26,786 nucleotides of DNA from a virus. Of this stretch, positions 15,609-23,355 are shown in pieces. Within the stretch, counting starts at the first letter, position 1, and each line of letters starts with the position of its first letter. The translations under genes and the position numbers were made by a program. The stretch is taken from positions 1 to 26,786 of the IMG/VR virus record IMGVR_UViG_3300023196_001080; one strand, written 5' to 3'. The notes beneath the pieces are model-generated. The model had not been told where the DNA came from. It worked only from the letters and a program-made list of their open reading frames with translations, and searched no databases.

Positions 15609-17279
15609 TTAAAGACTATTGCTAGTTGATGTGCTAGACATTAACTGTTGTAGTCGTTGGCGCAATTGATCACGCATAGTGTCTTTTAATTCTGCATCAG
15701 TATTACCTACTGCGGCATTGTATTGTTCATGTGTAGCAAACGGCATGTAGATAGTTTCACCATCTTCATCTGTGTGAGTGTGGAATCCAGTTCCACCTAG
15801 TTCACGTGCTCTTGCTACTGCTTGTTGTTCTGAGGGGTATTCTTCTGCTTTTGTATCTTCAAATACTCCATTAAATCTTTCATACACAGTTAACATCTTG
15901 TCTACTTCAGCAATCTCATGCTCTACGGCACGTTTGTTAAATTGTCTGTTGTAGCTGATGCTGAAATCTTGGGGCATGGTCTGATTGGTCCAGTCCATCC
16001 ATATCTGCCACAAGTTGTATTCAGCATTTTCCAAGTTAGTAGCCTTTTTACGAATCATTGCTTCTAGTTTAGCATCGTACTGTTCAACTTGAACACCACT
16101 GCTTGACCTTTTGACTAGGTCTTCTGATCTAATCATTGCAAGTTCATTCATCTTTTCTATTTTTTGGTCTACTAATGCTCTAATCTCTGTTAGTGCTGTT
16201 AATGGTGGCGCTTCAAATGTATAAACATAATTAGGCTGTCCATTTAAATTGTTTTCAACTCTGATAATTCCGCCTGGCTCAGCTGATATTTGACCACCGT
16301 TTAAATCATCAGTGTTTGAATCAATAACCAGTGTAGGATGGGCTGAGTATGTGATAGTGCTGTATATTTCAGCCATGTCACCATACACGCTACGTTGTAT
16401 TTGTGCTAAGTCAAATGTGCTTGTTGAGCCTACGCCATTGTATATCTTTTGATTTTGGTATATTGGGTTACAAGGAATATATCCTAATGGATTTTCTTGT
16501 GTGACCACAAATATGCCTTCAATTTGTTCTAGGCTGTCTATATCTATATTTGGAATGTAACTTTCATCTTCTTCATCGTTACTCATGAACACTGTTCTAA
16601 TAACATCCTTGTCCATATAACGATAAACAGTTTCTGTTTCGTTTGAATTTAATTCAATAAGTATTTTGTTTAATGTTAAATTACCATCTCTGTCGTATCC
16701 GTATTCCCAATTCTTAACGTCAATTGGTGAATGCACTTGCCATGTTGGAATAGGATTGTCGCCAAACTTCATGCAACTTACCCATGCAATACCATACACT
16801 GTGGTTAAGATATCCACTTGGCTCATAAATTCATTAATGGAATCGCCTTCTGAATTTACGTTGTTTACGAATTGGTTTACTTCTGGTGTGTTAGGTAAAA
16901 CTCTCTGAGGTGGAGTTCTAAATAACAAACTGTTGTATTCGCTAACATACAGTTTGAGATAATTTAAGTTTGGAGTGTTGTGTAACTTTTCTGAGTAGAA
17001 ACTACCATCAGATAAGTTATCATTGTCGTTTGCATTGCGACTGTTGTATGCATTAGACACTTGAGCTTTCATTTTGCTAACTGTATTACCATCTGCATCA
17101 AGCTGATAGGTATTAATAGTTTCGCTAGGGGTATTGGTGTCTACTTCATACGCTTTGAGGTATTGCCCATTTCTGTATTCGGGGCCTCCATAATAACTGC
17201 GGATAACTAAAGTCCAATCAGTTAGGTAGCGGTCGTATAAGTCGTGGACGCCAGTGATAAATTCTGAAAAAGTGGTCAC
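15609..17279 (-). CDS. Portal protein
   Basis: I place the start at the GTG at 17279: GGAG lies 5 nt upstream, and an NATAAATA motif lies 38 nt upstream, which would leave the in-frame ATG at 17411 untranscribed. That ATG also lies inside a terminator-like hairpin. The product is 556 aa. Features typical of siphoviral portals are LHNTPNLNYLKLYVSEYNSL, the EGDSINEFMSQVDI region, and the helical stem region (ALTEIRALVDQKIEKMNELA) followed by a KRSSSGVQVEQYDAKLEAMI stretch. It forms the dodecameric ring that is the packaging vertex and tail docking site. It lies upstream of scaffold and capsid, as expected. Confidence 0.85.
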   Translation of the reverse strand: MTTFSEFITGVHDLYDRYLTDWTLVIRSYYGGPEYRNGQYLKAYEVDTNTPSETINTYQLDADGNTVSKMKAQVSNAYNSRNANDNDNLSDGSFYSEKLHNTPNLNYLKLYVSEYNSLLFRTPPQRVLPNTPEVNQFVNNVNSEGDSINEFMSQVDILTTVYGIAWVSCMKFGDNPIPTWQVHSPIDVKNWEYGYDRDGNLTLNKILIELNSNETETVYRYMDKDVIRTVFMSNDEEDESYIPNIDIDSLEQIEGIFVVTQENPLGYIPCNPIYQNQKIYNGVGSTSTFDLAQIQRSVYGDMAEIYSTITYSAHPTLVIDSNTDDLNGGQISAEPGGIIRVENNLNGQPNYVYTFEAPPLTALTEIRALVDQKIEKMNELAMIRSEDLVKRSSSGVQVEQYDAKLEAMIRKKATNLENAEYNLWQIWMDWTNQTMPQDFSISYNRQFNKRAVEHEIAEVDKMLTVYERFNGVFEDTKAEEYPSEQQAVARARELGGTGFHTHTDEDGETIYMPFATHEQYNAAVGNTDAELKDTMRDQLRQRLQQLMSSTSTSNSL

Positions 17280-17316
17280 TAGTTCTCCATTTGTTTTGTA
17301 ATATATATTATGCAAG

Positions 17317-17324
17317 TATTTATC
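17317..17324 (-). promoter_or_regulatory. Late-type promoter motif GATAAATA upstream of portal
   Basis: GATAAATA on the minus strand, 38 nt before the portal GTG. It matches the T4-like late-promoter octamer NATAAATA and restarts leftward transcription after the opposite-strand cassette. It is the only promoter candidate I see for the head and most of the tail genes. Confidence 0.55.
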
Positions 17325-17401
17325 CTCTTCCAGGAATAAAGCCCATAATAACTGTATATTAGTAAATATTAGTGCAAAAAGACACGCATAGTATTTTTGT
17401 T

Positions 17402-17433
17402 GCCTGAGCATTCCAGGATGCTTGGGCTTTTTT
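17402..17433 (+). terminator. Rho-independent terminator, plus strand, at the left edge of the cassette
   Basis: The arms GCCTGAGCAT and ATGCTTGGGC pair over ten positions (two G-T wobbles) around TCCAGG and are followed by six Ts. It would stop rightward transcription just before the cassette. No plus-strand gene lies to its left, so it either insulates the cassette or ends an antisense RNA opposite the portal start. Confidence 0.6.
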
Positions 17434-17588
17434 GTGGATGGTCGATAAGTAAATGTGTTAAATGAATTAGGCGCAGGGCTTGTCCTACCGTAACTTTAGC
17501 AAAACTTTAATCACTTTGCTTATAAGGGTTGCGGGGAGAGTAACCAAACTCTCATATTGTCTACACCAATTCAAAAACAAACTAAAAG
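17434..17588 (+). other. Hairpin-rich gap between two plus-strand terminators; possible small RNA
   Basis: The 465-nt gap between the portal start (17279) and the ATPase start (17745) holds no convincing gene. Between the two terminators it contains GAGAGT-AACCAA-ACTCTC (6 bp), AGCAAA...TTTGCT (6 bp, 11-nt loop) and AGG...CCT, and it ends in a strong terminator. This suggests a short plus-strand structured RNA. I cannot find a convincing promoter for it, so the call is tentative. Confidence 0.3.
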
Positions 17589-17625
17589 AACTGCATTGTG
17601 ACCATTCACATTGTAGTTTTTTTTT
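17589..17625 (+). terminator. Strong rho-independent terminator, plus strand
   Basis: The arms AACTGCA/TGTAGTT and TGTGA/TCACA stack with a single T-T mismatch around a CCAT loop, 12 pairs in all including one wobble, and run into nine Ts (17617-17625). It lies only 10 nt before the -35 box of the next promoter, so it separates whatever is transcribed to the left from the ATPase operon. Confidence 0.7.
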
Positions 17626-17634
17626 GGAAAAAGG

Positions 17635-17662
17635 TTGACTTTGATCCAAAAAGACGTATACT
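17635..17662 (+). promoter_or_regulatory. Sigma70-type promoter for the ATPase operon
   Basis: TTGACT and TATACT boxes with a 16-nt spacer, preceded by an A/T-rich stretch. It shares the block AAAAAGGTTGAC with the promoter at 19731. Expected start about 7 nt downstream gives a leader of roughly 75 nt. The host-type boxes imply expression by unmodified host RNA polymerase, either early in infection or independent of the late programme. Confidence 0.75.
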
Positions 17663-17726
17663 ATAAACAGTGGCATAACATTTATACCACATTAACCCGC
17701 AAGGTAACATAGGAACACTTGCAAAC

Positions 17727-17744
17727 ATAACCATAGGAGGTTAT
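17727..17744 (+). promoter_or_regulatory. Hairpin that encloses the ribosome-binding site of the ATPase gene
   Basis: ATAACC pairs perfectly with GGTTAT, which directly abuts the ATG, and the loop is ATAGGA. The Shine-Dalgarno AGGAGG is thus split between loop and stem. Folding would mask part of it, so translation of the ATPase could be controlled by a protein, RNA or temperature. A 6-bp AT-rich stem is weak, so the effect may be modest. Confidence 0.4.
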
Positions 17745-18662
17745 ATGATTAATAATACATTAAAGACCTACATTCCTGTAGGCAATTCAAAACGCAAATT
17801 AACAGAAAACATTATCGAAGATTTCTTTGATGACTTTGATAGCCATGTTTACTTACGTGGGCAACCTGGTGTGGGTAAAACACACATTGTAACATCGGTA
17901 GCAGGCTCAAAGAATGTTGTGTTAATGCAAATAGACGGCAACATCACAAAGTGGGCATTTACAAAATTGTTAAGTGTTTATCTTTACAATGCTGGATGGC
18001 CCAGCAGTAATCATAAAGCATCACAAAAGACAATTAACCAATTGCCACGTGTAGTAGTGTTTATGGATGATTGCCCTAATGCACTAGATGGTGACTTTAT
18101 TGACACAATGAAAATAGCATTAGACACTGATGAAAAAGACTTTTGGCCATATAATGTTTCACTAGGTGGCCAATATAAACAAGCAGAAGTGTTTGAACGT
18201 GAAGCAATGGATCATTTTAGAATAGATGGTGAAGTTGGCTTACACATTCCTTTTTATGATAAAGTCAAGTTTATTTTCACAATGAACCATGCATTAGTAA
18301 GTGAGAAAGAAGCAGAAGCATACAAAAACAATAACCCAAAAGCAAGTATGAAAGTTATTGCTAACATGCAACACAAAGCCGCACTAGACAGCAGAGTTGA
18401 CTATCATGACTTACACATGACCAAAGAAGAGTATTGGGGCTGGATAGCAGACTTGTTGCTCAATGAAAAGATCCTTAAGGGTGCTACTAAGAGTGACTGC
18501 GAAGAGATGCTACAATTCTTATATGACAATTGGAGCACACTAAGAGATAAAAGTGTGAGAATGGTCAAAAACAAATTATGGAAAAACATGCAAAAAGCAA
18601 AATTCCGTAAAGGCTTTGACTATAAAGCACGTTGGTATGCATTGTGTGAAAGGGATATCTAA
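17745..18662 (+). CDS. AAA+ ATPase
   Basis: A 305-aa protein. Walker A is GQPGVGKT at residues 39-46, Walker B is VVVFMDD at 103-109, and a sensor-1-like FTMN lies at 178-181. A conserved-looking ALDSRVDYHDL at about 213-223 could hold an arginine finger, and SVRMVKNKLW near 270 fits sensor 2. The order and spacing fit a single AAA+ module of the loader/motor type. No helicase, protease or nuclease domain is attached, so the partner is likely a separate protein. The next gene overlaps by TAATG and is the obvious candidate. It is transcribed against the flanking packaging and head genes. Possible roles are DNA-replication loading, DNA remodelling or interference with the host or competing phages; the sequence does not decide. 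Confidence 0.8.
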   Translation: MINNTLKTYIPVGNSKRKLTENIIEDFFDDFDSHVYLRGQPGVGKTHIVTSVAGSKNVVLMQIDGNITKWAFTKLLSVYLYNAGWPSSNHKASQKTINQLPRVVVFMDDCPNALDGDFIDTMKIALDTDEKDFWPYNVSLGGQYKQAEVFEREAMDHFRIDGEVGLHIPFYDKVKFIFTMNHALVSEKEAEAYKNNNPKASMKVIANMQHKAALDSRVDYHDLHMTKEEYWGWIADLLLNEKILKGATKSDCEEMLQFLYDNWSTLRDKSVRMVKNKLWKNMQKAKFRKGFDYKARWYALCERDI

Positions 18663-19717
18663 TGAACAGCAAAGATATTGAAAACAAAATAAAGGGTCTG
18701 TATGAAAATATAGACCCCAATTGGCAAACAAAAAGTGATAAAATTTTGTTAGCCAATGAACTGCAACAAATAAATTGGCAAAACAAATCTGATGAAGAAA
18801 TCGAGGAACATAGACGTATTTCTATAGAAAACAGTAGAAAGTTTTGGGGATCTGCTACTGATGAATTTAAAAAAGAAAATGGCAAAAAGATTAAAGAGGC
18901 ACGTTGGGATAGTTTAACACCTGCAGAAAGAAAAAAGCAAAAAGATAGATTTAAAGCAATGGCTAAAGATCCTCTAATTAAAAAACAGCAACGTGAAACA
19001 AAAATTGCTAACGGATTTCAATTGGATCCAAAAATAAAATTAGAGATTTATAAAAAATGTTTAATTCCCTTAAGGCATGATAGAACATATCCTCTTTATA
19101 AGGAGTTAGCAACTGCATATGAGCAACCTATTAAAACAATAGAACATATTGCAAACAATTTTACTGATATACCAGGTATTACTGATGTTGTGCATAAAAA
19201 GAATATGGCAAAAGTAAAAAAACAATGGGATAAAATATGTGCTAAAAAACAAGCAGTACTTGATAAGGCACAACAAGAACGTTATGAGGCACGTTGGTGG
19301 TTTACATGGGAAATTATTAGCCCGGGTAAAGAAGCATGTGAATTATTAGATTATTATAATAGTTTAAGAACTGCAAATCAAAAAATGCCAGTGCCCCCAT
19401 CTGTTGTATACTATGTAAGAGAGCAAGACATGACTGCTAAAGAAATAAAAGAATATTGTAAAGAAAATAATATATATGAAAGCAACGATATAACATACTG
19501 GCATAAACTTAAAAAACATCCTTACAATTGGTATTCATTGAACAAGTCTGTTACACATAAGTTTGAAACTACAGCAGAAGCAATACAGTTTTTAAATAAA
19601 ATATTTGACCATGAATTTAATCATGAGAGACTACATGGAATGGCAGAACGTGGTTTTCAAACACATAGTAAGTGTAAAGGTTGGATAATTAGAAAAGTAA
19701 AAAAGGAAAAAAATTAA
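18662..19717 (+). CDS. Basic, putative DNA-binding protein coupled to the AAA+ ATPase
   Basis: A 351-aa protein rich in Lys, Glu, Trp and Tyr. Its ATG overlaps the ATPase stop (TAATG), with AAGGGAT as ribosome-binding site. No catalytic motif is recognised. Residues 60-115 (RKFWGSATDEFKKENGKKI, then WDSLTPAERKKQKDRFKAMA) look like the small repeats found beside homing-nuclease DNA-binding modules. The C-terminal 50 residues (KFETTAEAIQFLNKIFDHEF ... GFQTHSKCKGWIIRKV) resemble the F-x-S/T-x-x-EA-x-x-x-L...GW-x-I pattern of NUMOD-like modules. No GIY-YIG, HNH or LAGLIDADG core is seen. I infer a DNA-binding partner of the ATPase, comparable in layout to an ATPase-plus-specificity pair; this is not proven. 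Confidence 0.65.
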   Translation: MNSKDIENKIKGLYENIDPNWQTKSDKILLANELQQINWQNKSDEEIEEHRRISIENSRKFWGSATDEFKKENGKKIKEARWDSLTPAERKKQKDRFKAMAKDPLIKKQQRETKIANGFQLDPKIKLEIYKKCLIPLRHDRTYPLYKELATAYEQPIKTIEHIANNFTDIPGITDVVHKKNMAKVKKQWDKICAKKQAVLDKAQQERYEARWWFTWEIISPGKEACELLDYYNSLRTANQKMPVPPSVVYYVREQDMTAKEIKEYCKENNIYESNDITYWHKLKKHPYNWYSLNKSVTHKFETTAEAIQFLNKIFDHEFNHERLHGMAERGFQTHSKCKGWIIRKVKKEKN

Positions 19718-19730
19718 TTACCAAAAAAGG

Positions 19731-19758
19731 TTGACATCTCCTTCTAAGATGTTATAAT
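19731..19758 (+). promoter_or_regulatory. Consensus sigma70 promoter for the 19765-20025 RNA
   Basis: Perfect TTGACA and perfect TATAAT with a 16-nt spacer. The start site would fall at about 19765, exactly where the first helix of the predicted RNA begins. This is the best promoter in the window, and no protein-coding gene of any size follows on this strand before a terminator. Confidence 0.85.
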
Positions 19759-19764
19759 TAGTGA

Positions 19765-20025
19765 TGTAACAAAGGAAACATTAATTTTTAATATAATGGA
19801 GAATTCCTGTATTAGAATACAATGTTTATTGTTTCCTTGCTGGACCCGGGTGGGAAAGGTGTGTTACACTCTACAGTGAGTGTTTAGGGTTAAACTTAAA
19901 CAATTTGTGTGTGTAGTCTACACCCTAAACACCCACAATTAAATAACAAACACTTTGGTTATGCTGAAGCGATTGGAATTTTAAATCCTTAAGAAGGGAG
20001 TAACTGTGCGTTACTCCTTTTTTTT
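19765..20025 (+). ncRNA. Candidate structured non-coding RNA, about 260 nt
   Basis: Lies between a consensus promoter and a strong terminator, with no convincing ORF. Helices visible by eye: TGTAACA (19765-19771) with TGTTACA (19862-19868); AAGGAAACA (19772-19780) with TGTTTCCTT (19830-19838), stacked directly on the first; an inner TGTAT-TAGA-ATACA hairpin (19808-19821); CACT-CTAC-AGTG (19867-19878, competing with the end of the first helix); and an 11-bp perfect helix GTGTTTAGGGT (19880-19890) with ACCCTAAACAC (19922-19932) closing a 31-nt loop. The 3' part has weaker stems and the terminator. I recognise no known RNA family. It could be an antisense or regulatory RNA, a decoy, or an RNA partner of the adjacent ATPase and DNA-binding protein. 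Confidence 0.65.
19994..20025 (+). terminator. Strong rho-independent terminator ending the plus-strand cassette
   Basis: GGAGTAAC (19997-20004) pairs perfectly with GTTACTCC (20010-20017) around TGTGC. The stem is extended by AAG/TTT pairs and followed by eight Ts. The T tract touches the stop codon of the convergent minus-strand gene at 20024. Confidence 0.9.
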
Positions 20026-20625: not shown

Positions 20626-20869
20626 CTGTGTATTTTCCATTTATTTTTGTTCTGAACTTTGGCTTAGGCTTTGATTCATCCTTCTTGCCTTTGCTCCAGT
20701 CTATCTTGTCAAAGTTTGCTTTGTATTCTTCACTGTTATCATAACTGCTTATACCACTGCCTGCTTTAAATCCTTCAGCGGCATCTCTTGCACCTCTAAG
20801 TACTGGATTGGAAGCAATAAGTTTTTCGTTCCGCTTCCATTGGTCACTACCTTTCTTTGGTATGCTCAT
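20618..20869 (-). CDS. Small charged protein coupled to TerL
   Basis: An 83-aa product whose ATG overlaps the TerL stop (ATGA). It is charged and probably partly disordered, rich in Lys/Asp/Ser, with the segments KGSDQWKRNEKLIASNPVLR and NFDKIDWSKGKK. No family recognised. The strict coupling suggests it is made together with the packaging motor. Confidence 0.55.
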   Translation of the reverse strand: MSIPKKGSDQWKRNEKLIASNPVLRGARDAAEGFKAGSGISSYDNSEEYKANFDKIDWSKGKKDESKPKPKFRTKINGKYTDE

Positions 20870-22125
20870 CTTGTTTGTCTCCCTGAATATCTCATTGATT
20901 TGCCTTTGTCCTCACGTCTTATATCCTTGCGTATAACAAAGTTGTTGAATACGAGGTAACCTAACGAGTCTAAAAGATGGTCATATCCATCAGTCTTATT
21001 AGGCTGGCGTGTGCCTTCTTTATAGGTATGCTTTATTAAACATTCTCGTAAACGTTTGCAACTTGGGTCTATTAGCAGTTTGCGTTCACCCAAGTTGTTG
21101 CATAACAAACTGTTTACACTGTTAATCCTGTCTACTACTGGAGGATTAGTATTGCCTACTCTCACTTTGAATCCAGCATTTTGTAATATAATATGGTCAG
21201 TTACTCCAGCGGCACTTGTCTTTTGTGCTTGTCCACTTGCATCTGGAAAAGCATTTATTAATCTGTGTGGGTAACGTGTTTTAATCTCTTGCACTAGTTC
21301 ATTTGTATTGGAGGAATAAATTTCTAGTTCATCTATTATGTGTAACACACCATTCTTATTAATGTAACCTATCACAGCACTCATTGGGTTAATGTTCATA
21401 TCGATTCCTACATATATAGGATCTCTAGCAGTCAGTTTGTTTTTGTTGAATGGTTGCACGTTGTCTTCAGTAAAACTATAGTATATAACACCAGCATAGT
21501 CCACAAACGTTGCCAGGTATTCTTGTTGGAACTGTCGCTCATCCATATCTCTTTTTGCGGCTTCTATCTCTTCAGCATCTACTTGGCCGCCTTCAATTGT
21601 GGTAAACTGATGGGCACTCCAATCTTTAGTTGCTCCGGCTTGCACATACAAGTCATAAAACCAATTACGCCCTTTGGGTGAACCAATAAACATACAGTGA
21701 CCTTTCATATCACTCAGTGTTGGACGCAAACATGTAAAAAATGTGTCAGGATCCATGTCTGCACACTCGTCTAACACGATAAAATTGTATTTCCCACCTC
21801 TTAGTGCATCTTTGTTGTCACTGCTACGTATGGTTATCTTAGACCCGTTTACGAGCAGGATTGATAAGTCTGATTCGTTAACTTTCTTGATCCAATTAAC
21901 AGCATACAACAATGTCTTTAAATCATCCCAGATAACGGTTCGTGCTTGTCGATACGTTGGTGCTACATACAAACACTTTTGGTTAGGCTTACGGGCAAAC
22001 TTGGCTAATTCATTAATACTTAAATATGATTTACCCAGACGTCTACCGCCTACTACAACTCTAAAGCGATTTGGATCATTGCTAACTGTTTGTTGTGGCT
22101 TGCTTAGTTTCAAACATGTCTCCAT
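20866..22125 (-). CDS. terL: Terminase large subunit (packaging ATPase and nuclease)
   Basis: A 419-aa protein. The ATPase domain has Walker A GGRRLGKS (residues 26-33), Walker B FIVLDE (115-120, catalytic E120) and coupling motif FIGSPKG (146-152). The RNase H-like nuclease domain has acidic residues in VGIDMN (D242), PDASG (D295) and DGYDHLLDSLGY (D382, D386). It cuts concatemers and drives DNA into the portal. The ATG at 22125 has no clear ribosome-binding site. A TTG at 22113 has GGAG 6 nt upstream and overlaps the stop of the HNH gene as TTGA, so the true start may be there, giving 415 aa. Both leave all motifs intact. Confidence 0.93.
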   Translation of the reverse strand: METCLKLSKPQQTVSNDPNRFRVVVGGRRLGKSYLSINELAKFARKPNQKCLYVAPTYRQARTVIWDDLKTLLYAVNWIKKVNESDLSILLVNGSKITIRSSDNKDALRGGKYNFIVLDECADMDPDTFFTCLRPTLSDMKGHCMFIGSPKGRNWFYDLYVQAGATKDWSAHQFTTIEGGQVDAEEIEAAKRDMDERQFQQEYLATFVDYAGVIYYSFTEDNVQPFNKNKLTARDPIYVGIDMNINPMSAVIGYINKNGVLHIIDELEIYSSNTNELVQEIKTRYPHRLINAFPDASGQAQKTSAAGVTDHIILQNAGFKVRVGNTNPPVVDRINSVNSLLCNNLGERKLLIDPSCKRLRECLIKHTYKEGTRQPNKTDGYDHLLDSLGYLVFNNFVIRKDIRREDKGKSMRYSGRQTR

Positions 22126-22586
22126 GTCTTGCGTATAATGATGTCTCTGATACAGCCAGGACTAACACCATACTTTTCACCAATTGGACCTAATCCATGT
22201 GCTTTACTTCTAGGTGTATAACGTGCTCTAATGGCGGCAACATCAGCTTCTTGTAGTTTACTTGCTCTGTTCTTTGATCCAACACTTAATGTGCCACGTT
22301 CTCTAGCTACTTCTAACAGTTCACGTTGAGTAGCAGTATACAAGTGCTTGGGGTTGCAACATGTTTTACTTCTGCAAGTAGTTGCAATTCGAAGTCCACG
22401 TGGTATAGGACCTATACTGTATGTGTATGCAAAACGTTGTGCTCTGTGTAATCCACCAGCGGCACTAAACAGTGCATAGCCTTGACTGGTAGTGCATAAG
22501 TTCCAATCCCAACATTCTTCATCGCCATGTTTGGTCACACTGCGCCAAAATCTATCTACATCTTTCTGTTTTATTTCTTTTTTCAT
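22110..22586 (-). CDS. HNH endonuclease-like protein lacking the usual first histidine
   Basis: A 158-aa product starting at the ATG at 22586, preceded by GAGGAATAATT; an in-frame upstream ATG at 22646 lies in the previous gene. The fold signature is W-D-W, then LHRAQRFAYTYSIG, then CRSKTCCNPKHLYTAT. The C-terminus is an HTH-like segment (IGEKYGVSPGCIRDIIIRKT) ending in WRHV, as in phage HNH homing endonucleases. In the family the motif reads v-x-H-x-C ... C-x-NP-x-HL; here the first His position appears to be Thr69, while N78 and H81 remain. The protein may thus be catalytically dead but still bind DNA. It lies between TerS and TerL, a frequent place for HNH genes. Confidence 0.75.
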   Translation of the reverse strand: MKKEIKQKDVDRFWRSVTKHGDEECWDWNLCTTSQGYALFSAAGGLHRAQRFAYTYSIGPIPRGLRIATTCRSKTCCNPKHLYTATQRELLEVARERGTLSVGSKNRASKLQEADVAAIRARYTPRSKAHGLGPIGEKYGVSPGCIRDIIIRKTWRHV

Positions 22587-22588
22587 AA

Positions 22589-22771
22589 TTATTCCTCGTC
22601 CCATGGGTGCGGCTTTATTGCTCCACCCTTTGGCATGTAATCCCAATAGTCTTCTCTCAACACTTTCTCATATTTCAAGTAAAAGAACATTTTCTCTTCT
22701 TCAGTATCAAAGCCTTTTTCCCAGGCTATAATAATGTCTCTAACATCATTCATGTCTTGGCATATACTCAT
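22589..22771 (-). CDS. Small acidic protein between the two HNH genes
   Basis: A 60-aa product if the ATG at 22771 is used, which overlaps the stop of the upstream HNH gene (ATGA); an ATG at 22789 is also in frame. The sequence contains MNDVRDIIIAWEKGFDTEEE and EDYWDYMPKGG. Acidic, helical, no family recognised. It could be a terminase accessory protein separated from its neighbours by HNH insertion. Confidence 0.5.
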   Translation of the reverse strand: MSICQDMNDVRDIIIAWEKGFDTEEEKMFFYLKYEKVLREDYWDYMPKGGAIKPHPWDEE

Positions 22772-23355
22772 CTGCCTAAATGCCGCCATATTTTGTTGCG
22801 GTGTATTGCTTCTACTGTGCTAACACTAATACTGTGTTGCTCTGCTAATCTCTTTTGTGTTATAATGTGGTGATTGTCAATTATGTATTGTGCTTGACTT
22901 TGAGTCAATTTGCTGTTACCATTCTGTTCACCTAGACGCGGTTCTCCTGTGCGGTGTCTACCTTTGGCAACACAATCCAATGCATTGTCTTGCACCGTGC
23001 CTAGAAATAAATGTGCTGTGTTCACACATTGTCTGTAACTAACATCATCCTTATCATAGTTTTGGTCACAATCATGTAACACACAATATTCATTTACTTC
23101 TGCTTCTGTAAACTTGCCACTCACTAATGCACTGAATCTGTGAGCACTTATATAACGTATTCTCATCTCACCAGTATGATCTTCATACCTATACCACCAA
23201 TTGATGTAGCCATTGTTTTGAGTATTGCCCATTAAGAAATGACAACCATTGGGTTGCACTTGGATTCTGTCAGCAAACTTTTGGATATAATGATTACTTA
23301 TATTTGTAATGCTGTGTGGCTCACCGGGGATGCCTGGCTTCTTGCAGTGCTTCAT
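22768..23355 (-). CDS. HNH endonuclease with C-terminal helix-turn-helix
   Basis: A 195-aa protein whose ATG overlaps the previous stop (ATGA). The nuclease core runs AHRFSALVSG (residues 71-80), VLHDCD (92-97, His94 as general base), then CVNTAHLFLGTVQDNALD (110-127) and KGRH. The pattern H-x-C...C-v-N-x-x-HL-x-x-GT-x-x-DN-x-x-D is characteristic of HNH homing endonucleases. A C-terminal HTH (KRLAEQHSISVSTVEAIHRN) ends in IWRHLGR, as in the other HNH gene. All catalytic positions appear intact. It probably acts as a mobile nicking or cleaving enzyme; a role in packaging, as for HNH proteins next to terminases in cos phages, is an alternative. Confidence 0.85.
   Translation of the reverse strand: MKHCKKPGIPGEPHSITNISNHYIQKFADRIQVQPNGCHFLMGNTQNNGYINWWYRYEDHTGEMRIRYISAHRFSALVSGKFTEAEVNEYCVLHDCDQNYDKDDVSYRQCVNTAHLFLGTVQDNALDCVAKGRHRTGEPRLGEQNGNSKLTQSQAQYIIDNHHIITQKRLAEQHSISVSTVEAIHRNKIWRHLGR

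Follow-up and report, generated by a model that had tools for sequence, protein, structure and literature searches.

Morons, known from lambdoid and other phages, are cargo genes that sit between late genes and are transcribed autonomously. The locus described here is a plus-strand cassette that encodes an AAA+ ATPase and a second protein (gene 2) and lies between the genes for the large terminase subunit (terL) and the portal protein in IMGVR_UViG_3300023196_001080, an IMG/VR virus record of 26,786 bases which was analysed as the full record and is referred to as the window. Like a moron, the cassette is accessory, has a predicted promoter of its own, differs in composition from its surroundings, occupies a site from which it is missing in relatives and appears independent of the late operon; it may also have a time of expression of its own. 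It differs from a moron in that it is accommodated in an entire docking site that also houses resident structured RNAs, in that a promoter box shared by the cargo marks the junction and in that its terminator is shared with one of these RNAs (RNA-B). The cassette is real, well delimited and not ordinary core gene content, and its docking island adds a new form to moron biology. The region is probably a docking site for moron-type cargo, which in the window takes the form of a moron with a DNA-directed AAA+ machine.

The proteins of the cassette recall further described systems. The ATPase is distant kin of NrdC.10 from T4-like phages such as Acj9, whose protein matches the phrog_1250 profile over its full length. 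The window protein matches this profile over 66 residues of its C-terminal region only (E 7e-7), and gp129 of the cultured phage FLC8 matches it at E 8e-16. The window ATPase is about 24-29% identical to NrdC.10-type proteins, has a shorter N-terminus and is accompanied by a structured leader and a NUMOD-type partner. The DNA-binding modules of homing endonucleases that have NUMOD3 or I-TevI tails (MobE, I-TevI, Seg) are matched by the tails of the gene 2 counterparts in FLC8 and in the phage contigs L001, L002 and L004, but these counterparts lack a nuclease domain, have a new conserved N-terminus and in every locus found stand beside an AAA+ gene. IS21 (IstB) and Tn7-like (TnsC) elements offer a working analogy of an ATPase that is directed by a DNA-recognition partner; the cassette differs from them in having no transposase and no terminal repeats and in a similarity that is confined to the P-loop.

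A probable docking site and its resident RNAs

The TerL protein of the window is 43-45% identical to TerL of Pelagibacter and Vibrio phages and its portal protein 24-26% identical to Pelagibacter phage portals. The nearest cultured relatives are the Pelagibacter phages HTVC202P, HTVC111P and HTVC026P (TerL 45%, portal 24-26%) which, unlike the window, have only about 100 nucleotides between terL and portal, so that the docking island is absent there. Further relatives were gathered by TerL and portal searches, and the window proteins were compared with them by tblastn. In close relatives terL is followed by small genes and then by portal, scaffold and major capsid protein, and the terL-portal interval measures 0.9-5.8 kb across the 22 other contigs that contain both genes. 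None of the 22 carries the AAA+ gene or gene 2, although near-duplicate contigs (L012/L047, L016/L018) mean that the independent lineages are fewer than 22; the pair is accordingly not a core feature of the group. On the opposite strand the interval holds RNAs only in L009, L010, L011, L058, L017 and L215 and other open reading frames in L012, L013, L060, L061, L062, L074 and L075, the last of which encodes an FkbM-type methyltransferase.

In the window the portal, scaffold, major capsid protein, terL and remaining late genes occupy the minus strand, and the plus-strand unit between terL and portal consists of promoter P1, the AAA+ gene, gene 2, promoter P2, a structured RNA and a terminator. 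The insertion junctions can be read from L215, which is a near-perfect empty site: it aligns to window positions 17573-17660 (a terminator and P1 as far as its -10 element) and then to 19710-19837 (the P2 region and RNA-B), and the promoter is the sole part common to both flanks. This break in the match places the insert at about 17661-19709 on the plus strand, and together with the alignment of L009, which matches the window from 19710 on and has RNA-B without the AAA+ gene or gene 2, it predicts an insert composed of a leader, the AAA+ gene and gene 2. L204 matches from 19721 on and has a tRNA-Asn at the junction. The stop codon of gene 2 lies inside the resident sequence AAAATTAATTACC, and gene 2 has a GC content of 30-32% compared with about 38-40% in the late genes. 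The mapped ends of the insert have no terminal inverted repeats, and no transposase or nuclease open reading frame is found within it.

Promoters P1 (17628-17662) and P2 (19724-19758), both on the plus strand and predicted to be of the sigma70 type, are the two top-scoring promoters of a 7-kb scan, in which they are scored at 17635-17662 and 19731-19758. Promoter-like matches in that scan are overall below chance (13 found, 24.7 expected from shuffles), and therefore only P1 and P2 carry weight. In P1 the box AAAAAGGTTGAC is followed by TATACT (10/12 consensus match) and in P2 by TATAAT (12/12), and the box occurs exactly twice in the window. P1 matches the RNA-B promoter of L215, and P2 is an RNA-B promoter like those of L009 and L204. 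A simple duplication therefore does not account for the two copies, and recombination between lineages at the promoter box would be the likely route. Of the 38 AAAAGGTTGAC-type promoters with a good -10 element in the relatives, 33 fall within the terL-portal interval and on its opposite strand, a portion that amounts to 12.5% of the strand-specific sequence analysed (nominal binomial p ~4e-25, a value inflated because the contigs are related). The motif common to P1 and P2 is hence a group-wide island promoter.

The initial annotation had described this stretch as a plus-strand unit inside a minus-strand late region, moron-like, insulated and transcriptionally separate, with two sigma70-type promoters of common sequence. 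The strands of the open reading frames, the presence and absence of the genes in relatives and the promoters common within the island all bear this out. The three plus-strand terminators it proposed are all visible, and relatives keep those near 17402 and 17588; the first of them, a terminator-like hairpin with a U tract at 17402-17427, belongs to resident intergenic DNA that separates portal from RNA-A and is conserved in close relatives, but as it lies upstream of P1 it ends no cassette transcript. Of the three, this hairpin alone is in the terminator listing; those at about 17588-17622 and 19989-20023 are visible in the sequence and the folds. The structured RNA proved sound as a structure and mistaken as a part of the cassette, since RNA-B is present in L009, L204, L215 and L017 without the AAA+ pair and is thus resident, with the genes inserted beside it rather than moving together with it.

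RNA-B (19765-20023, plus strand) consists of a three-way junction (19765-19868), a hairpin (19876-19936) and a terminator (19989-20023). The segment 19765-20026 folds at -77 kcal/mol (z = -5.15, with 0 of 200 shuffles as low). The junction is built from stem P1 (TGTAAC/GTTACA), stem P2, which is a rod, and stem P3 with a CGGGUG loop; it is the minimum-free-energy structure of the 5' domain in the window, L009, L204, L215 and L017, and a looser, shorter form is seen in L010 and L058. The C-GGGU-G loop of stem P3 is invariant in five phages. In the five-member alignment 90.7% of cells pair and two pairs of stem P3 are changed on both sides, which, being only two, makes the covariation suggestive rather than overwhelming. 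The closing helix lies outside the minimum-energy fold at full length and forms when the domain is folded alone. The region 19765-19868 also looks mosaic, the P2 arm resembling L215 and L017 and stem P3 with the following segment resembling L009 and L204. Rfam covariance models give no match at gathering score for the window, RNA-B included, or for the leader of L003, and blastn of RNA-B against cultured phages gives short chance matches only. A pattern search for the conserved hairpin flank GTGCAA-N5-CACGCAT returned mostly unrelated chance matches.

RNA-A (about 17440-17625, plus strand) is a second resident structured RNA candidate which the initial annotation had overlooked. It contains the conserved GGCTTGTCC at 17477-17485 and ends in the terminator hairpin at 17588-17622, and both of these elements are common to the window, L215 and L204. 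RNA-A folds stably in the seven members examined, with z-scores taken from a rough shuffle, and no promoter was found for it. A regulatory RNA is the default guess for both RNA-A and RNA-B. A phi29-type packaging RNA was considered for RNA-B on account of its position adjoining terL and was rejected, as the terminase is of another type than that of phi29 and similarity is lacking. The possibilities of a 6S RNA and a transfer-messenger RNA (tmRNA) were likewise considered and dropped.

The ATPase, gene 2 and the structured leader

The AAA+ gene (17745-18662, plus strand) encodes a protein of 305 residues with a Walker A motif (GQPGVGKT), a Walker B motif (VVVFMDD) and sensor 1 (FTMN), and with R217 and SVR272 as candidates for the arginine finger and sensor 2, both assigned by position only. 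G42-T46, D108-D109, N181, R217 and R272 are invariant in the ATPase alignment (A1). The protein is 51-53% identical to the ATPases of L001-L004, four unrelated phage contigs in which tblastn of the proteins tested finds no other similarity to the window phage. A PDB sequence search gives kinesin matches at the level of the P-loop only (E > 0.01), a genome-collection search finds no relative of the ATPase and a plasmid collection no match. PADLOC and NCBIfam return nothing beyond the homing-endonuclease tails of the partners, and no family library assigns a function to either cassette protein.

Gene 2 (18662-19717, plus strand) encodes 351 residues, and its reading frame overlaps that of the ATPase as TAATG. 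The coupled pair recognised in the initial annotation holds well beyond the window: in 5/5 contigs (the window and L001-L004) gene 2 either overlaps the AAA+ gene or directly adjoins it, the AAA+ motifs are conserved, and a search with the N-terminal segment of gene 2 finds only loci with the ATPase upstream. Only these roughly 35 N-terminal residues are common to all partners, and the tails differ. Tails match I-TevI_DNA-bd (L001), NUMOD3 (L002, L004) and homing endonuclease profiles, and L004 has two tandem copies of the partner. Nuclease-free tails of this type also occur in the distant cultured phages FLC6 and FLC8; in FLC8 the protein that comes after the ATPase gp129 is gp128, which has 170 residues with NUMOD3 and I-TevI_DNA-bd. 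No nuclease domain (GIY-YIG, HNH or other) is found in any partner from the window, L001-L004 or FLC8. The suggestion that gene 2 is DNA-binding-like finds support in these modules of its relatives and none in a significant match of the window protein, to which I-TevI-like repeats do not align significantly by hhalign; its DNA binding would follow from the relatives.

The pair occupies varied surroundings. In L002 it lies on the strand opposite the portal gene, between portal and the next late-type open reading frame, and in L001, L003 and L004 it is found among non-structural genes. Its hosts differ in gene content, with nrdAB and clpX in L001, a DNA ligase in L004 and a jumbo phage in the case of FLC8, and homing-endonuclease genes adjoin the pair in L001 (HNH) and L003 (SegE-type GIY-YIG). 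Near the L001 cassette are also a permuted tmRNA gene (L001:12572-12924, tag ANDERFALAA) and a porin-like open reading frame (L001:12953-13846), and grx and cspA accompany nrdAB and clpX on this contig. A literature search returned nothing on this pair or on the site, and as far as the libraries and literature were searched neither the RNA family nor the ATPase/targeting pair has been described.

The AAA+ gene is preceded by a probable structured leader (17667-17744, plus strand), also missed by the initial annotation, with hairpins HP1 (17670-17690), HP2 (17699-17722) and HP3 (17727-17744), the last of which contains the Shine-Dalgarno sequence AGGAGG (17735-17740). The same architecture of two hairpins split by a TTAACCC-like stretch (TTAACCC in the window) and a third with the Shine-Dalgarno sequence is seen after the region of the transcript start in the window, L001, L002, L003, L004 and L007, and each of the six leaders folds so on its own. 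In their alignment (A6) 86.7% of cells pair and 9/14 pairs are changed on both sides. This number is reached in 0 of 500 shuffles, a control that does not keep relatedness, and controls in which the partner strand is slid give at most 3; as the structure was derived from the same sequences, the slid control favours it. Run on 0.8 Mb of phage DNA, a model of the leader retrieves the six AAA+ leaders, which are its own training set, and nothing else, and a genome-collection search for the leader pattern found none. With the ribosome-binding site held in a hairpin, synthesis is probably under translational control. Upstream of the AAA+ gene in L003, L004 and L007 lies a near-perfect, operator-like palindrome, ATGCTATA-C-TATAGCAT, over the -10 box, which in the window is replaced by the group promoter.

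Proposed action of the cassette and alternatives

It is proposed that the resident RNA-A and RNA-B, each with a terminator, are transcribed in the direction opposite to the late genes, with a strong sigma70-type promoter driving RNA-B, and that cargo is exchanged between them, apparently through recombination around the shared promoter box. The window cargo, a mobile leader with the ATPase and gene 2, would have been put behind the resident P1, while RNA-B retained, or was given, P2 as a promoter of its own. The leader may limit or autoregulate translation. Gene 2 would dock on the ATPase via its conserved N-terminal motif, and its exchangeable homing-endonuclease-type tail would bring the ATPase to chosen DNA, possibly that of a host or competitor, where ATP hydrolysis might remodel or load something.

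Several observations weigh against this proposal. Gene 2 has no dedicated terminator; P2 and RNA-B follow directly at its 3' side and the next terminator is that at 19989-20023, so that its transcript would read on into RNA-B, and for this reason the insert is called moron-like cargo in a shared island. A leader model trained without the window misses the window leader at default filters and unfiltered recovers it, in correct register, as a weak best match (E ~0.03 in 26.8 kb), so that the leader can be taken as solid in L001-L004 and L007 and as probable in the window. Profile search gives window gene 2 no significant DNA-binding domain of its own, and the NrdC.10-like ATPases of Acj9, X1, DLP6, Gundel_1, F86 and Cassandra, most of the cultured examples examined, have no recognisable NUMOD protein adjoining them. 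AlphaFold models built on alignments of 5-6 sequences reach a mean predicted local distance difference test score of 46 for the ATPase and 50 for gene 2 and were not used for a fold search.

A possible but doubtful alternative is a cassette for inter-phage competition or superinfection exclusion that recognises the DNA of rival phages in a marker-exclusion-like manner without cutting it. A constant ATPase with exchangeable recognition tails of homing-endonuclease ancestry, the tandem partners in L004 and the accessory location would suit this, while the PADLOC result, silent past the tails, speaks against it. A mobile element proper, with an IstB/TnsC-like AAA+ helper, a partner that picks the target and a nuclease or transposase taken from neighbouring homing endonucleases, is unlikely. 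The pair does occur at different places in unrelated phages, its tails are of the homing-endonuclease type, nuclease genes adjoin it in L001 and L003 and the window has HNH-type genes at terL; yet the unit itself contains neither transposase nor nuclease nor terminal repeats, the HNH genes at terL are resident also in relatives without the cassette, and the junction is the promoter box of the whole group, used by unrelated cargo too, which points to ordinary recombination.

The probability is smaller again that the pair is a replication module in which the ATPase acts as a DnaC/DnaI-like helicase loader and gene 2 as the phage origin-binding protein. An AAA+ protein beside a DNA-binding-type protein would suit an initiator/loader pair and there is weak P-loop similarity to a DnaC-like loader, DnaI, Hda and IstB, but the likeness does not extend past the P-loop, the 22 other group contigs spanning the interval all lack the pair, and phages of very different gene content (L001, L004, FLC8) have it. 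A chance collection of random promoters, hairpins and spurious reading frames could be read into the shortage of promoter-like matches, and is refuted by the comparative data to the point of being negligible: the motifs and the pairing persist in unrelated phages, the promoter box is enriched in the interval, and both the leader and RNA-B show covariation.

For the moron-type cargo proposed here, phage competition or host-DNA takeover would fit the accessory, exchangeable-tail design best. A more specific suggestion, made tentatively, is a domain-swappable DNA-targeting machine that is traded among unrelated phages, composed of a constant AAA+ ATPase, a self-regulating RNA leader and interchangeable nuclease-less tails, and, within this phage group, docked beside a new three-way-junction RNA family. 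If true, this group of relatives of marine Pelagibacter phages would possess a defined swap site in which cargo comes and goes between small resident RNAs; one of these would belong to an undescribed family whose junction and loop are conserved, and homing-endonuclease recognition tails would have become the targeting component of a system that is not a nuclease. Two proteins and DNA suffice to test the pair in vitro, and the cultured phages FLC6 and FLC8 carry a distant version.

Flanking genes and other occupants of the site

The docking site is flanked on its lower side by the portal gene (phrog_145; 15609-17279, minus strand; profile E 2e-29), for which a GTG start at 17279 is likelier than the ATG at 17411 because distant relatives align from about residue 45, and on its upper side by terL (phrog_2; 20866-22125, minus strand; E 8e-51). 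Two HNH-type genes (22110-22646 and 22768-23355) lie between the small terminase gene terS and terL, and one or both are kept at the same place in L009, L011, L014, L015, L204 and L215. Upstream of portal, on the minus strand at 17300-17330, is a conserved GATAAATA/CATAAATA that resembles the T4 late promoter TATAAATA and is found at the same place in L009, L010, L011, L061, L204 and L215.

A tRNA-Asn (gtt) is present in the docking region of L060 (L060:5633-5708) and L204 (L204:8591-8665), and the L204 copy has its 5' end directly within the U tract that belongs to the RNA-A terminator. In L010 (2253-2600), L011 (7387-7700) and L058 (reverse complement of 1300-1700), additional conserved hairpins and a conserved small open reading frame (RELxKLYVDRAYTEWY) occur between the small genes at terL and RNA-B; they are lost in the window. 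The island reading frames of L065, L066, L068, L073 and L080 encode recurrent small proteins with repeats like FEEKYGKTIGQLALELNLHP, which are possible DNA-binding cargo; that of L073 has a weak match to an AsnC-type helix-turn-helix.

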